A stretch of DNA of 64,000 nt, from positions 372,001 to 436,000 of the forward strand of contig NZ_JAJVKW010000007.1 in assembly GCF_024198255.1 (NCBI RefSeq), in the 5' to 3' direction. The notes below the pieces were generated by a model, which saw nothing but the letters and a program-made list of their open reading frames with translations, did not search any database and was not told the origin of the DNA. This stretch comes from Myxococcus guangdongensis (lineage in GTDB: Bacteria > Myxococcota > Myxococcia > Myxococcales > Myxococcaceae). Numbering within the stretch: the first letter of the stretch is position 1; each line of letters starts with the position of its first letter. The position numbers were made by a program, and so were the translations under genes. This document shows positions 1 to 61,230 of this stretch, one piece after another.

Positions 1-10926
<10,926 letters not shown>

Positions 10927-55289: not shown

Positions 55290-55696
55290 TCCGCGGCGAC
55301 CGGACAGGAGTGGAGGGTGCTCCCACCCTCCTCCGTCCGGGAATTCCTACCGGTTCTCCACGACGCACGCTGGAACGACTTCCGCCCTCCTCCCCCTGGC
55401 GGCGCCGCGCGCGCGTGCAACCCCCTGAAATGACGTCCGCTCGGATGCCCTCCCCGAGGGCATGCAGCTTGCTCCTCGCCCACGCGCGTCGATGGGGGTG
55501 ACTCCCCGTCGGCCAGGGCGATGGGCTTGGCGGCCGGAGGTCTCGGGTGAAGGTTGCGGGAGGCGGTGGGTGCTCGCGGGACCGGGAGGCGGCGGATGCG
55601 CCCGGGGCGCAAGGGCGGCGGGAGCACCTGGTGGGGCGTGGCGGCCGGGACCTCGGGTCCGCCAATCATCAGGAGCGCAACGAAGCGGAGAGGTTC
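55290..55696. other. Gap between the TPR-like and GGDEF genes
   Basis: 407 bp without a credible gene. It begins with a terminator hairpin, and the right part should hold the promoter of the GGDEF operon, though no clear boxes are seen. Confidence 0.35.
55300..55340 (+). terminator. Terminator hairpin after the TPR-like gene
   Basis: Long arms CCGGACAGGAGTGGAGGGTG / CACCCTCCTCCGTCCGG with two small bulges, 11 bp after the stop codon. Confidence 0.7.
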
Positions 55697-56653
55697 ATGC
55701 AACGGCGAGGGCGCACCTCGGAGCGGTCCCTCCTCCTGGTCATCGAGGACGACGCGAGCGTGCTGGAGAGCCTGTCGGACCTGCTCGCCTCGCGTTTCGA
55801 CGTGCTGGGAGCGGCGGACGCGGGCGTGGGGTTGGAGCTGGCGAGGGAACATCGGCCGGACCTGGTCCTGCTGGACAGGTTCCTGCCCAGCGGGGATGGG
55901 CTGGCGGTCCTGGAGGCGCTGCAGGAGGACTCCCGGACGGAGTCCACCCCGGTCATCTTCCTGACCGGGGACGCGGACGAGGCCACCCTGGAGCGCTGCC
56001 TGGAGATGGGCGCCGTGGACTTCATCCACAAGCCGGCGAGCGCGAGGGAGCTCATGGCACGGATCGACCGGGCGCTGCGGCAGAGTGAACAGCAGCGGCG
56101 GCTGCAGATCCTCGCCCAGACGGATGCCCTCACGGGGCTGGCGAACTTCCGGGCGCTCACCGTGCGGCTGGAGGAGGAGCTCCGGCGGGCCCAGCGCTAC
56201 GGCTATCCGTTGAGCGTGGTGGTCATCGACCTGGACCACCTGAAGGCCATCAACGACGGCATGGGCCACGACGTGGGCAACCGGGCCATCCTCGCGCTGG
56301 CCAACCAGCTCAAGGGCAACCTGCGCGAGTCGGACTTCGCGGCGCGCTTCGGCGGCGACGAGTTCGTGGCGCTCCTCCCCCACCAGACGGCGTTGGAGGC
56401 GGCGGTGTTCGCCGAGCGCATCCGCGCCGGGCTGCGCTCCGTGGGCGTGCAGAAGAGCGACGGCCGCCCCGCCTCCTTCGGGTTGAGCGTGAGCGTGGGC
56501 ATCGCGGACCACACATTGGAAACACCCCGGGACGACACCGAGGGGCTGATGAAGGCCGCCGACGCGGCCCTCTACGAGGCCAAGCGCGAGGGGCGCGACC
56601 GGGTGGTGGTGTTCGGCCGTCCGGCCATGGCGCCTTCCGTGCAACGACACTGA
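55697..56653 (+). CDS. Diguanylate cyclase response regulator (REC-GGDEF)
   Basis: 318 residues. The receiver has the acidic pair in VIEDDA, phospho-acceptor D60 (LVLLDRF), T90 and K112. The GGDEF domain has an intact active site FGGDEF (219-223) and an inhibitory I-site RESD (210-213). It should make c-di-GMP when phosphorylated, with product inhibition. The ATG at 55697 has GGAGAGG upstream. The next gene, also carrying a receiver, starts 47 bp downstream, so they probably form one operon. Confidence 0.93.
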   Translation: MQRRGRTSERSLLLVIEDDASVLESLSDLLASRFDVLGAADAGVGLELAREHRPDLVLLDRFLPSGDGLAVLEALQEDSRTESTPVIFLTGDADEATLERCLEMGAVDFIHKPASARELMARIDRALRQSEQQRRLQILAQTDALTGLANFRALTVRLEEELRRAQRYGYPLSVVVIDLDHLKAINDGMGHDVGNRAILALANQLKGNLRESDFAARFGGDEFVALLPHQTALEAAVFAERIRAGLRSVGVQKSDGRPASFGLSVSVGIADHTLETPRDDTEGLMKAADAALYEAKREGRDRVVVFGRPAMAPSVQRH

Positions 56654-56700: not shown

Positions 56701-58440
56701 ATGATTCTGGGCAACAGGCTGACGAGCGGTTCGAGGGTTGCGGTCGTCGGAGGCGGTATCGCGGGTGCGGGGCTGGCGGCCTCGCTGCTCTTCAATGGCA
56801 GGGCGCGGGGGCTGACGCTCGATGTGCGCGTCTACTCGGGTGGCCTGTCGGAGCGCACCGCGCCGCCCGCCGTGCTGACGCCGGAGTGTCGCTCGCGGCT
56901 GGCCGCGCTGGGCTGTCGCATCCCCACCGAGTGGCGCGCCCACGAGCTGCGCGGCGTGGAGATCATCTCCGAGGGGCGGCGCGAGCTGCTCCCCTCCGCT
57001 CCCGGTGGCCTCTGGGTGGTGGACGGCTGGCCGCAAGGACAAGGCGGCCTGGCGCAGGTGCGGGACGTGCTGGCCACGGCGGCCAGCGCCCAGGGCGCGC
57101 GCTTCCTCGAGCGGCACGTGGACCGGGTGGAGCGTCAGCCCGCGGCCCCCGATGCGCCGGCGTCCGTGCGAGGCGCGGGCCCCCTGGTGGTCCGAGCCCA
57201 GGGAGGCGGCGAGCGCTTCCACGCGGTGGCCCTGGCGGGGGGCGCGGGTCCCCTGATGGGCGACAACTTCTTCCCGGGCTTCCGGCCGGCGCCGATGATG
57301 CCCGCGGTGCAGGCGCGGCTGCGGCATGCGTCGTCGCGGCTGGAGATTGCTCCGGTGGCGCGCCTCTGGGTGGCGCCGCTTCCCACGGTGGATGGGTTGT
57401 TCCTCCTGCCGGGCGCGGACTCCGTCTATGCGCTGGCCTTCGGGCCCGCGGTGACGCCCGCCGACCTGTGCCAGGCGCTGATGATGGCCTCGCGGGATGG
57501 GCTGCTCGAGGAGGGCTTCGAGCTGGCGGCGCTGGAGACCACGCGGCTGCCCTTCGGGCCCGGGCGCACGCTGGTGGCCCCGGGACAGATTGCCGTGGGT
57601 CCGGCGGCCTTCGGGCATCCGCTGCAGGTGGGGCTGTCGGAGACGCTGGCCTCGTGCAGCCGGGCCGCGGTGGCGCTGCTGGACGGCGGGCTGGATGCGG
57701 GGGCCCTGGAGCGCCGGTATGTGCGCGAGGGCCTGTGCGAGTTGATGGAGGACGCGTCGGCCGGAGCCCGCGCGGTGGGCTGGCTGCGACGCGCCGGCAA
57801 GCGGGCGCCCTCCGCCTTCGTGGCGGCGAAGGGGCGGCGCACGTCGGTGGGTGTCTATGGCGGTGGCGTGCTGGGATTGAACGCGCCCACGCCGCTGGCC
57901 CTGTTGGGCGCCGTGCGCTGGGCGGGCCTGCGCGAGACGATGAGCAACTGGCTGCGGATGTCGCTGGAGCCGGTGCCGCTGGCCATCCCGGAGCTGGAGC
58001 CGGACCTGTACTACGTGGTGGATGACGACGCGGATGCGCGCGAGGCGCTCACCGCGCTCCTGGAGAGCACGGGGGCCAAGGTCGTCTCCTTCGCGGATGA
58101 GCTCGCGTTGTTCTGCGCGGTGGCGCGGAGGCCTCCGACGGCCATCGTCCTCGACGTGGTGCTGCACTGGGTGGATGGGCTGCGCCTGTGCGAGGGCTTG
58201 AAGCAGCATCCCCTCACGCGCAACACGCGGGTGGTGGTGATGAGCGGGTTGAACCGGCCGCACGTGCGTCAGCGCGCGCTCGACGCGGGGGCGGAGGCCT
58301 TCCTGCCCAAGCCCGTGGACCCGGAGCTGCTGCTGCGCATCCTCACGGGCCGCCTCACGTCGTCCACCAGCGCGAACGAGGTGCTCACGCCCCTGCCCCC
58401 GAGCGACACGGGCGCATCGGACCGCTACGCCGCTTATTAG
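56701..58440 (+). CDS. FAD-dependent oxidoreductase-like protein fused to a C-terminal receiver domain
   Basis: 579 residues. Residues 1-430 look like a flavoprotein: dinucleotide-binding VAVVGGGIAGAGLAASLL (13-30), further Gly-rich elements and a C-terminal GVYGGGVLGLNAPTPLALL region where FAD-binding folds close. Residues 438-560 are a receiver domain: D441-D443 acidic cluster, phospho-acceptor D485 (IVLDVVL), S515 (VMSG) and K537 (LPKPVD), so phosphorylation should be possible. The end is Ser/Thr-rich and not obviously functional. The substrate of the flavoprotein part is unknown. It follows the REC-GGDEF gene closely. Confidence 0.85.
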   Translation: MILGNRLTSGSRVAVVGGGIAGAGLAASLLFNGRARGLTLDVRVYSGGLSERTAPPAVLTPECRSRLAALGCRIPTEWRAHELRGVEIISEGRRELLPSAPGGLWVVDGWPQGQGGLAQVRDVLATAASAQGARFLERHVDRVERQPAAPDAPASVRGAGPLVVRAQGGGERFHAVALAGGAGPLMGDNFFPGFRPAPMMPAVQARLRHASSRLEIAPVARLWVAPLPTVDGLFLLPGADSVYALAFGPAVTPADLCQALMMASRDGLLEEGFELAALETTRLPFGPGRTLVAPGQIAVGPAAFGHPLQVGLSETLASCSRAAVALLDGGLDAGALERRYVREGLCELMEDASAGARAVGWLRRAGKRAPSAFVAAKGRRTSVGVYGGGVLGLNAPTPLALLGAVRWAGLRETMSNWLRMSLEPVPLAIPELEPDLYYVVDDDADAREALTALLESTGAKVVSFADELALFCAVARRPPTAIVLDVVLHWVDGLRLCEGLKQHPLTRNTRVVVMSGLNRPHVRQRALDAGAEAFLPKPVDPELLLRILTGRLTSSTSANEVLTPLPPSDTGASDRYAAY

Positions 58441-59265: not shown

Positions 59266-60180
59266 TCACCCGGGTGACCGCGGCGCGAAGTCGCGGAGCG
59301 CGGCATACGGAGGCTGGACGAAGACGGCGCCCACCTCCTTCCGGAACCAGGTGAGCTGACGCTTGGCGTACCGGCGGGTCTCCTGCGCCGTGTCGTGAAT
59401 GGCCTCCGCGACGCTCATGCGTCCCTCCACCACCGCGCGCGCCTGCACGTAGCCCACGCTGCGCATGGGGGCCGCCTCCGCGTAACCCCGCTCCATCAAC
59501 GCGCGCGCCTCGTCCACCAACCCCGCGGCGAACATGGCCTCGGTGCGTGCGTTGATGCGCGTGTACAGGTCCTCGCGAGGAGGCTCCAGGACGAACAGGC
59601 GGAAGGGATATCGGTCCGGGAGGAAGGCGTGGGCCTTGCGGAACTCCGAGGCGGGCACGCCCGTCTGCGCGTGGATCTCCAGCGCCCTGACGACTCGCAC
59701 CAGGTCCTGGGCCGGTAGCTTCGCGGCCGTCTCCGGGTCCACCGCCGCCAGCCTTCGGTGAACGGCCTCCCGTCCCTGCTCGGCCGCGAGCGCCTCCATC
59801 TCGGCACGCAGCGCGGGGAGCGCCCCCGGAGCCTCCACCACGCCATGCAGCAGGATGCGCAGGTACAGCCCCGTCCCGCCCACGACGACGACAGGCCGCC
59901 CACGGTCCGTGATGTCCGCGATGGCCGCGTCCGCGCGGCGCTGGTACTCGGCGGCCGAGAACGACTCCTGAGGGTCCACCACGGACAGCAGGTGGTGCGG
60001 CACCGCCGCGAGCTCCTCCACGGAGGGCTTCGCGGTGCCGATGTCGAAGTGCCGGTACACCTGCTGCGAGTCGGCGCTGACAATCTCCGCACCCAGGCGG
60101 CGCGCCAGCTCGATGCCCAGCGCCGTCTTCCCAGATGCCGTCGGCCCCGCGACCACCGTCAACACCGGCCCCTCACCCAT
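59266..60180 (-). CDS. miaA: tRNA dimethylallyltransferase
   Basis: 304 residues. P-loop AGPTASGKTALGIELA, then VSADSQQVYRHFDIGTAKPS, DPQESFSAAEYQRRAD, GGTGLYLRILLHG and the DRYPFRLFVLEPPREDLY region, all typical. It adds an isopentenyl group to A37 of tRNAs reading UNN codons. Its ATG lies within the last codons of the HprK-like gene (8-bp overlap), so it is translated with that gene. Confidence 0.97.
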   Translation of the reverse strand: MGEGPVLTVVAGPTASGKTALGIELARRLGAEIVSADSQQVYRHFDIGTAKPSVEELAAVPHHLLSVVDPQESFSAAEYQRRADAAIADITDRGRPVVVVGGTGLYLRILLHGVVEAPGALPALRAEMEALAAEQGREAVHRRLAAVDPETAAKLPAQDLVRVVRALEIHAQTGVPASEFRKAHAFLPDRYPFRLFVLEPPREDLYTRINARTEAMFAAGLVDEARALMERGYAEAAPMRSVGYVQARAVVEGRMSVAEAIHDTAQETRRYAKRQLTWFRKEVGAVFVQPPYAALRDFAPRSPG

Positions 60181-61069
60181 GTCGCGATGCTCCCAACGCA
60201 GCCCTCACCACGGTGACAGCGGAGTCGTCCCGCGAGAACACCAACCGCGCGGACTCTACCTCGGACAACAACCGTCCCGCGGACGCCAGCATCGCGGCCC
60301 TGCCCGCCGGGGAAGCCTCGGGCAGCAACACATTGTGCACCAGCATCCGCCCCGTCTCTCCCCCACCCTGACGCTCCCACCGTGAGCTCGAATCCCACGC
60401 CAGCGTCCCCACCGCCCCCAGCCTCGCCTCACCAGGGAAGCCCACGTTCCACGGCGTCCCGGCGGCCCGCCACGTCCCAGGGGACTCCGGCCATATCGCG
60501 ACCAGCTCGTCCGAGAGCAGTGACTCCCCCGCCCCCATCCACAGCCCCCCCAGCGTGCTCTTGCCAGCGCCCGAGTGCCCCGTGAACAGCGCCGCGACCC
60601 CGTCATGGACGAGCCCCACGCCGTGCACCAACAGGCCTCCACGCCGGGCAAGCTCCGCCGCCAGCATCACGCGAAGGACCACCTCCACGGGGAACCGCCC
60701 CGCGCCCACCACCGTGCCTCGCGCGCCACTCGCATCGATGCGGGCCGAGTAGTCCTCACCCTCGAGCACCAGCACGCCATCCTCCGCGCGCCAGGGTCTG
60801 GGAATCTCGCGCGTCACCGGCTCCGCGGACGGCACTTCGGGCGGACGCACCTCCAACCGGGAGGCGCGAGCCCCCACCGGAGGCTCGTCGACGATGAAGC
60901 CCGCGAGCGAGCGCCGGAGCAGCTCCTGGACGCGGGCTTCTGGAACATGAAGTCCCACCGTCCAGCCCGCCAGCGTGAGCCAGGGGCCGGACGTCTCCTG
61001 CGAATCATTGAGGCGGCCCGAGCGCCGGGGACCGGACGGGCCGGCTCCCGACGAGCTCAGGGCGTGCAC
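60173..61069 (-). CDS. HprK-like serine kinase domain protein
   Basis: 298 residues from a GTG at 61069, which overlaps the end of the preceding small gene by 13 bp. The P-loop GHSGAGKST (164-172) and LLSDELVAI (about 184-192) match the HprK/PEP carboxykinase-like fold. The N-terminal 160 residues do not look like the usual HprK N-terminal domain. No HPr, EIIA or PTS genes are nearby, so the classical HPr kinase role is unlikely. In lasso-peptide and related clusters such stand-alone kinases modify peptides, and the neighbouring 57-residue peptide is a candidate target. That is inference from context. Confidence 0.82.
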   Translation of the reverse strand: MHALSSSGAGPSGPRRSGRLNDSQETSGPWLTLAGWTVGLHVPEARVQELLRRSLAGFIVDEPPVGARASRLEVRPPEVPSAEPVTREIPRPWRAEDGVLVLEGEDYSARIDASGARGTVVGAGRFPVEVVLRVMLAAELARRGGLLVHGVGLVHDGVAALFTGHSGAGKSTLGGLWMGAGESLLSDELVAIWPESPGTWRAAGTPWNVGFPGEARLGAVGTLAWDSSSRWERQGGGETGRMLVHNVLLPEASPAGRAAMLASAGRLLSEVESARLVFSRDDSAVTVVRAALGASRHG

Positions 61070-61230
61070 TCCGACTCGCCGGGGATGTTGCACTGGGACA
61101 TCGCCGCGAGCGCGACGAAGGGCTGCTCCCACAGGATGGCGGGCGCCTCGTAGCGAGGCGTGGCAGCGGACGCCGAAGACGTCTCCACCGCCGGGGACTG
61201 CGTGGCCGAGGGGGTCGAGGGATTGTTCAC
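61057..61230 (-). CDS. 57-residue peptide with YxxP leader-like motif, candidate precursor peptide
   Basis: 57 residues, GTG start overlapping the stop of the large upstream gene (GTGA) and ending inside the start of the kinase gene. After a Ser/Thr/Ala/Pro-rich 25-residue start come RYEAPAILWEQPF, then a short spacer and SQCNIPGESECTP at the C-terminus, with two Cys and two Ser/Thr. A YxxP element in the leader is typical of precursor peptides recognised by RRE domains, as in lasso peptides. No lasso cyclase, protease or RRE gene is seen, so the biosynthetic class is open. Both ends are translationally coupled to neighbours. Confidence 0.6.
   Translation of the reverse strand: MNNPSTPSATQSPAVETSSASAATPRYEAPAILWEQPFVALAAMSQCNIPGESECTP

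Follow-up and report, generated by a model that had tools for sequence, protein, structure and literature searches.

The closest described systems to the one considered here are the gene clusters for linear polyphosphorylated peptides (LPPs), a similar enzyme set having been characterized in Paenibacillus in 2026 (Popov et al., Nat Commun, May 2026; PMC13381572). As described in the main text of that paper, the clusters (lppA-K-B-S-D-N) encode a signal peptidase I (SpI)-like peptidase (LppS), a discrete recognition element (RRE; LppB) of ribosomally synthesized and post-translationally modified peptides (RiPPs), an HprK-like kinase (LppK), a nucleoside triphosphate (NTP) transferase and a transporter. 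The precursor motif is YxxPxVLxHQxIxFETxxS, with Y at –16, P at –13 and T at –1; the leader is cleaved after T–1, and phosphate is found on Ser3 of LppA. The same text calls LPPs restricted to Bacillota, with a main SpI cluster that is 'predominantly' Bacillota, and presents them as patchy and mobile, with unknown final product and function. We analyzed a 64 000-nt stretch of Myxococcus guangdongensis DNA (hereafter the window; positions 372001–436000 of contig C7, in a genome of 11.2 Mb) and found that a 57-residue precursor peptide gene and an HprK-like kinase gene near its right edge belong to a six-gene cassette, which we consider, with a probability of about 0.6, to be an LPP-like RiPP system yielding a phosphorylated linear peptide. 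The string 'Myxococc' does not occur in the main text of PMC13381572, and no description of such a cassette in Myxococcota was found in the open-access literature searched. The cassette looks like a kind so far reported from Bacillota, and the initial annotation, which had been made from the window alone and considered the system possibly uncharacterised, is correct only in part, given the enzyme set known from Paenibacillus.

The six genes are tightly packed in the order S24 peptidase, RRE, lipoprotein, propeller protein, peptide and kinase (Table 1). The propeller stop (61227) and the peptide start overlap by 4 nt, the peptide end and the kinase start (GTG, 61069) by 13 nt, and the kinase gene and miaA by 8 nt; among the propeller, lipoprotein, RRE and S24 genes, neighbours overlap or almost touch. 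The initial placement of a YxxP peptide gene between the propeller and kinase genes, overlapped at both ends, with the kinase gene running into miaA, was thus confirmed. The RRE and S24 peptidase genes both lie within 1.7 kb past the right edge of the window; this edge cuts through the propeller gene, which is the only reason why the initial annotation saw neither. It had pointed to that region as a place for RRE, cyclase or protease genes; a PqqD-type RRE and a peptidase are indeed there, but neither a macrolactam cyclase nor a B2 peptidase was detected in the operon or in the ten neighbouring proteins scanned. Since the RRE and the peptidase adjoin the remaining genes, the suggestion that the system might be incomplete is not supported.

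The peptide, whose C-terminal sequence is SQCNIPGESECTP, comprises a variable 26-residue N-terminus, a conserved leader (YEAPAILWEQPFVALA) and a predicted core (AMSQCNIPGESECTP). When it is placed on the published LPP motif (main text of PMC13381572), Y–16, P–13, L–10 and Q–7 are identical, as is Ser45 at the position of Ser3, and similar residues stand at –11 (I for V) and –5 (F for I). The predicted cleavage site, A42|A43 (VALA|AMSQC...), carries AxA at –3/–1. Such AxA sites are typical of signal peptidases. We reduced 53 locus entries with peptides of the window type, some of which represent the same place twice, to 29 distinct sequences from the motif to the end (27 sequences from 51 entries, together with L097 and L166). 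Across these sequences, Y–16, P–13, I/V–11, mostly L–10, Q–7 and S3 recur on the LPP register as given in the main text of PMC13381572. Motif position 19, which corresponds to Ser45, is Ser or Thr in 28 of the 29; Ala occupies –3 and –1 in 27 each (otherwise Gly, Pro or Thr), and every core contains exactly two Cys (29/29).

These comparisons bear on the phosphosite. Kinases of paeninodin-type clusters phosphorylate the C-terminal Ser of lasso peptides, according to the relevant passages of PMC8498205, and the initial annotation had brought up the same possibility for this peptide. That chemistry does not apply to a peptide with no Ser at its C-terminus: the 29 distinct sequences end in Pro, Val, Glu or Asp, and never in Ser. 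Ser53 (in ESEC) was likewise dropped as the main phosphosite, since further residues follow it and several relatives outside the genus have lost it (e.g. PGACEDVP, PGQDPRCTP), while Ser or Thr is kept at the position of Ser45.

No credible Pfam family was found for the peptide. The ratio of nonsynonymous to synonymous polymorphism (pN/pS) across its conserved part is 0.14, computed from 24 distinct DNA sequences that represent every same-genus locus but L097 (26 of 27) and without the final six codons, where the peptide frame runs into the start of the kinase gene. We also considered by eye whether the product might be a small lipoprotein or a Sec peptide, and rejected both: the residues preceding the first Cys (ISQC, VSEPPC, ISNPC) do not form a lipobox, and the N-terminus is rich in Ser, Thr and Pro.

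The HprK-like domain has its catalytic residues, and the initial reading of it stands; its active-site motifs (Table 1) and H149 are invariant in 16 aligned sequences. An AlphaFold2 model built from these sequences has a mean predicted local distance difference test (pLDDT) score of 90.7 and shows a fold of the phosphoenolpyruvate carboxykinase (PEPCK)/HprK type. With this model, Foldseek gave a best E of 5.5e-7 for PEPCK and of 1.2e-5 for HPr kinases, and a second structure comparison gave PEPCK with Z up to 14.8, the matches within the PEPCK/HprK superfamily having low TM-scores; a sequence search of the PDB yielded weak matches only (HprK, E 0.092). The RRE scores 45.4 bits with Pfam PqqD (cut-off 23.4) and retains an Asn and an Asp that we took, by motif reading, as N33 and D70 of LppB. 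The peptidase scores 42.5 bits with Pfam Peptidase_S24 (cut-off 23.3) and, by motif reading, keeps the Ser, His and Gly-Asp stretches (GDSMWP, LHR and RGD in the window-type sequences); the archaeal signal peptidase I family of NCBIfam (sigpep_I_arch) gives 24.4 bits (cut-off 51.85). Because these Pfam scores exceed their cut-offs and all NCBIfam scores fall below theirs, the operon proteins are, as judged by profile scores, members of known superfamilies, but they reach no NCBIfam cut-off.

By eye, the lipoprotein has an LLLAAC lipobox and the propeller protein a signal peptide. A model of the latter (mean pLDDT 77.3) is rich in beta structure; among compact structures, it is matched best by BamB propellers (for example 3q7m, with 315 columns and a root-mean-square deviation of 3.5), beside immunoglobulin (Ig)-like arrays. 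In one relative locus (L052 of genome G036), another relative of the cassette lipoprotein is encoded upstream of the RRE (7079–7729).

We then compared the locus with those of relatives. The kinase query matched 45 of 61 relatives, including all 27 genomes of the same genus, and the peptide was also found in all 27, so that the conserved pairing of peptide and HprK-like kinase that had been suggested at first was borne out, with no case in the genus of the peptide frame being lost where the kinase is kept. At E up to 1, the peptide was found in 34 of the 61 relatives, a count that includes chance-level matches in three genomes (G042, G044 and G049; E 0.2–0.4), and a peptide profile detected it in 54 of 92 genomes of the family. 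The RRE, lipoprotein, propeller, peptide and kinase genes are ordered alike in 20/20 relative loci, and all six genes in 19, L052 being without a clear S24 gene beside the RRE; miaA follows in 19 (the exception is L048). In each of the 20, the peptide gene lies directly next to that of the propeller protein; in the window, the two overlap. At the 17 same-genus loci among these, the last 33 residues of the peptide are 84–100% identical to those of the window, compared with 52–94% for the kinase. Window-type cassettes without S24 occur in G036 (L052), G110 (L117, where the contig ends soon after the kinase) and G117 (L120), and each of these genomes has a second cassette with S24 (L055, L116 and L119, respectively); the pattern looks as if the peptidase were shared between cassettes.

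Table 1. Positions of the cassette genes, their motifs and the adjoining gene, numbered from the first nucleotide of the window
Feature	Position	Strand	Basis
Precursor peptide gene, 57 aa, GTG start	61057..61230	minus	open reading frame (ORF), conservation
Conserved leader segment, Y27-A42	61105..61152	minus	register with LPP motif in main text of PMC13381572
YxxP motif (here YEAP), putative RRE-binding	61141-61152	minus	
Predicted core, residues 43-57, conserved C47 and C55	61060..61104	minus	inferred from register
Ser45 codon, predicted phosphosite, core position 3	61096..61098	minus	register with LppA Ser3, main text of PMC13381572
Gene of the HprK-like kinase (298 aa, GTG start), with a proposed role like that of LppK	60173..61069	minus	fold, motifs
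Kinase Walker A, GHSGAGKST	60554..60580	minus	G169, K170 and T172 unchanged across 16 sequences
Kinase Asp-Glu pair D187 E188, at place of HprK catalytic Asp	60506..60511	minus	invariant in 16 sequences
Secreted Ig-array and BamB-like beta-propeller protein gene, 1036 aa	61227..64000, on to about 64337 beyond the window	minus	
Lipoprotein gene, 177 aa	about 64339-64872, beyond the window edge	same direction as propeller	
PqqD-type RRE gene, 98 aa	about 64869-65165, beyond the window edge	same direction as propeller	
S24 peptidase gene, 164 aa	about 65162-65656, beyond the window edge	same direction as propeller	
miaA (IPP transferase), overlapping downstream housekeeping gene; locus marker outside the pathway	59266..60180	minus	

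Across the phylum, 101 of 145 genomes were matched by the kinase profile at E up to 1e-6. We examined 60 further kinase loci, a non-random set consisting of 20 weaker rows of the relative search and 40 loci picked to span genera, some of whose stretches stop at contig ends, and looked for a short ORF with YxxPx[VILM] ending –420 to +130 nt from the start of the kinase domain. Such a peptide was found just before the kinase at 40/60 loci, compared with 1/60 in the antisense control and 10/537 in other search windows of the same loci. It was present at 36 of the 41 loci with a same-strand RRE, and at 4 of the 19 without one; the former count becomes 38 if L116 (a WxxP variant) and L060 (a YxxP peptide beyond the distance limit) are included.

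Two layouts were seen. In one, the order is RRE, giant secreted protein, peptide, kinase and S24; an open frame of 900–2,400 codons ends no more than about 1 kb ahead of the kinase domain at 26 of the 41 RRE loci, and the giants scanned (L054, L055, L063 and L072) have FG-GAP repeats in 4/4 and Ig-like domains above cut-off in 3/4. An EamA-type permease is often encoded next (15/60 loci; profile built from three loci and confirmed by Pfam as EamA) and could act as an exporter in these cassettes. The other layout consists of RRE, radical SAM, peptide and kinase, mostly with S24 after the kinase, although in L130 and L145 S24 comes ahead of radical SAM and in L138 none was seen; a same-strand radical SAM match was obtained at 24/60 loci (profile from two genes confirmed by Pfam). 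A profile search of 21 window-type loci (L033–L052 and L002) gave no radical SAM or permease match. In this wider set, one kinase/RRE/peptidase chassis is joined with surface proteins or with radical SAM enzymes across the phylum. We tentatively suggest, as a possibility with the odds against it, that this chassis matures short, often Cys-containing (phospho)peptides for co-operonic giant secreted Ig/propeller proteins throughout Myxococcota, serving surface display and not a diffusible product; the peptide would then be a phosphorylated ligand, plug or anchor of the surface propeller.

The full series of giant protein, YxxP/WxxP peptide, kinase, S24 and EamA-type permease was seen in L053–L055, L057, L067, L072, L112, L113, L116, L119, L121, L123, L149 and L150. 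The S24 proteins of the giant-protein type (L053, L054, L055, L116, L119, L121 and L149) keep Ser and His without the Gly-Asp stretch of the window type, and their catalytic Asp may therefore differ; the S24 protein of L054 goes on into a weak match to GNAT that stays below cut-off. The radical-SAM version was recorded at L070, L129–L131, L133, L138, L140, L143 and L145, and several of its peptides contain EALM[SG]ICKGG. A similar radical-SAM set, with no S24 match at the locus and followed by a large open frame, is found in an Anaerolineales record (L107). At L134 (G070), a window-like peptide (YEAPAVAWEEDFEPAGQVTGC) and a kinase are accompanied by radical SAM and RRE genes downstream, and this locus is possibly intermediate between the cassette types. 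Outside the phylum, among the matches listed, a contig scan with the kinase pattern gave at least four loci (Anaerolineales, a gammaproteobacterium, Halalkalibacter and Marmoricola).

Taken as an LPP-like system, the cassette would work as follows. The PqqD-type RRE would bind the YEAP leader of the 57-residue precursor and present it to the HprK-like kinase, which would phosphorylate Ser45, perhaps repeatedly; the S24/archaeal-SpI-like peptidase would cleave after VALA (A42|A43), giving a 15-residue two-cysteine phosphopeptide, AM(pS)QCNIPGESECTP. This product probably leaves the cytoplasm, outside which a disulfide between its two Cys would be possible, and acts with the secreted Ig/BamB-like propeller and the small lipoprotein at the cell envelope. 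Whereas the operon and its conservation, the intact catalytic motifs, the motif register and the pairing of such peptides with the kinase across the phylum were seen directly, we infer the phosphorylation, the cleavage site, the disulfide, the export and the partnership with the propeller. Features that the locus shares with LPP clusters as described in the main text of PMC13381572 are a discrete RRE, an HprK-like kinase with intact motifs, a serine peptidase of the SpI/S24 type, the lack of a macrolactam cyclase among the proteins scanned, a YxxPx[VI]L..Q leader in register and Ser at core position 3. The myxobacterial cassette differs from those clusters in its single locus throughout the genus and near-invariant two-Cys core, in the AxA at its predicted cleavage site, and in the added lipoprotein and secreted propeller; in addition, no capsule or lasso genes were seen in the part of its neighbourhood that was scanned. 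The best clue to the function of the product is its propeller partner, which is constant. Throughout the genus, an enzyme set similar to that of LPPs lies at one chromosomal locus, its predicted product hardly varying and its secreted partner always the same, and if the reading is true, the role of a phosphorylated linear RiPP could be tested by gene deletion with a defined predicted product; the bacteria with the cassette presumably include genetically tractable relatives.

Several observations weigh against this interpretation. The best NCBIfam scores of the kinase, RRE and peptidase are below cut-off, that of the kinase far so: 23.6 bits of 200 for the kinase (HprK_rel_A), 23.8 of 46 for the RRE (PqqD) and 30.2 of 63.25 for the peptidase (sod_Ni_protease, the Ni-SOD protease family). 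His–8, Phe–3, Glu–2 and Thr–1 of the LPP motif differ in the window peptide, and its near-invariant product contrasts with the variable cores of Bacillota LPPs (main text of PMC13381572). Neither a nucleotidyltransferase (LppN) nor an MsbA-like transporter, which belong to the core LPP genes in that text, was detected in the operon or the ten neighbours scanned. At L052, position 19 is Val, with Ser at 20; in the wider types, this position varies and is often Gly in radical-SAM-type relatives, so that Ser phosphorylation is not implied for them because the residue is not constant. The search found no YxxP peptide at 5 of the 41 RRE loci, among which L064, L065 and L124 are unexplained, and at L134, elsewhere in the phylum, the window-like peptide occurs with radical SAM and no S24 was seen. 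The likeness, which we assessed from the published motif and descriptions, is accordingly no proof of membership among LPPs: four motif residues differ, and the cassette has neither the transferase nor the transporter. Elsewhere in the genome, NTP_transf_5 has five matches (four above cut-off), all on other contigs; the two best, on contig C2, lie in what reads as a polysaccharide-type locus, with no cassette kinase or S24 there.

Other explanations of the same genes deserve weight. The kinase fold is common to PEPCK (Z 14.8) and HprK, two Cys lie near Ser/Thr in every core, and related cassettes include radical SAM enzymes, all of which would suit an RRE-dependent RiPP whose HprK/PEPCK-like enzyme leaves no stable phosphate on Ser; phosphorylation might, for example, be an activating step toward dehydration or a crosslink with a conserved Cys, and the product would be no phosphopeptide. 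We regard this as unlikely, given that no lyase or cyclase was found among the operon proteins with Pfam or NCBIfam and that the closest characterized enzyme with similar partners leaves its phosphate on Ser3 (main text of PMC13381572). The adjoining peptide and propeller genes at 20/20 relative loci, the giant frames at 26 of 41 RRE loci and a nearly invariant product from one locus in the genus would also fit a unit centred on the propeller, in which the peptide served as a chaperone, plug or sensor and its phosphorylation state gated propeller synthesis or display, with no product released; yet the peptidase and RRE suggest a matured peptide, and the radical-SAM-first relatives have no giant frame, which makes such a unit decidedly improbable in our view.

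An incomplete or degenerate paeninodin-type lasso cluster would likewise combine an RRE, a [Y/W]xxP leader and an HprK-like kinase, and a Halalkalibacter locus obtained with the same kinase query (L109) contains, by reading, cyclase-like, kinase, RRE and B2-like ORFs. An enzyme acting in trans is conceivable, as Asn_synthase is matched five times in the genome and Transglut_core3 once, just above cut-off (27 bits, cut-off 26), but all these matches are on other contigs. One of those to Asn_synthase lies near a contig end, in a stretch (C22:386–5955, L172) that also encodes a glycosyltransferase-like protein and has a third frame matching PqqD weakly; it is unrelated to the cassette kinase, and neither that kinase nor S24 was found within 12 kb. 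The window cassette has neither cyclase nor B2 peptidase in the operon and ten neighbours, its gene set is stable across genera, and its peptides never end in the Ser that characterizes the paeninodin type in the relevant passages of PMC8498205; we therefore rejected this explanation for the locus as very improbable. That the peptide ORF is no gene, having arisen by chance or serving solely as a leader in translational coupling, might be suspected from its short length, GTG start and overlaps at both ends, but it is scarcely credible in view of the pN/pS of 0.14, the higher identity of its last 33 residues than of the kinase, and the YxxP peptides at the same place in distant cassettes, and a chance ORF was ruled out on the first and last of these grounds.

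Three further known systems resemble the LPP-like cassette in part. The HPr-rel-A system (TIGR04352 kinase and TIGR04353 PqqD-like protein) places the same superfamilies side by side, but the cassette proteins stay under both cut-offs, with 23.6 of 200 bits for TIGR04352 and 15.7 of 35 for TIGR04353. SynChlorMet cassettes (ScmC, ScmD, ScmE/F) also combine HprK-like and PqqD-like proteins and are closer to the radical-SAM relatives than to the window cassette, which has no radical SAM gene and scores 12.9 of 125 bits for ScmC and 15.7 of 100 for ScmD. The HPr kinase/phosphorylase of the phosphotransferase system (PTS) shares the kinase fold and active-site motifs, but TIGR00679 gives 14.9 of 240 bits and Pfam Hpr_kinase_C 14.4 of 33.3. 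No HPr was seen at the window locus, and the initial statement that PTS/HPr genes are absent is valid for the window; elsewhere in the genome, however, an HPr kinase domain scores strongly, with 230.7 bits, and it lies on a different contig (C3:603661–604164).

The surroundings of the cassette were also inspected. Farther upstream of S24 are genes for histidyl-tRNA synthetase, phosphatidylserine decarboxylase and others without an evident RiPP role, with an Mla-type ABC system past this neighbourhood. On the other side, outside the cassette, the window encodes a response regulator with a GGDEF domain (55547–56653) and a protein with a C-terminal response-regulator domain (56701–58440).

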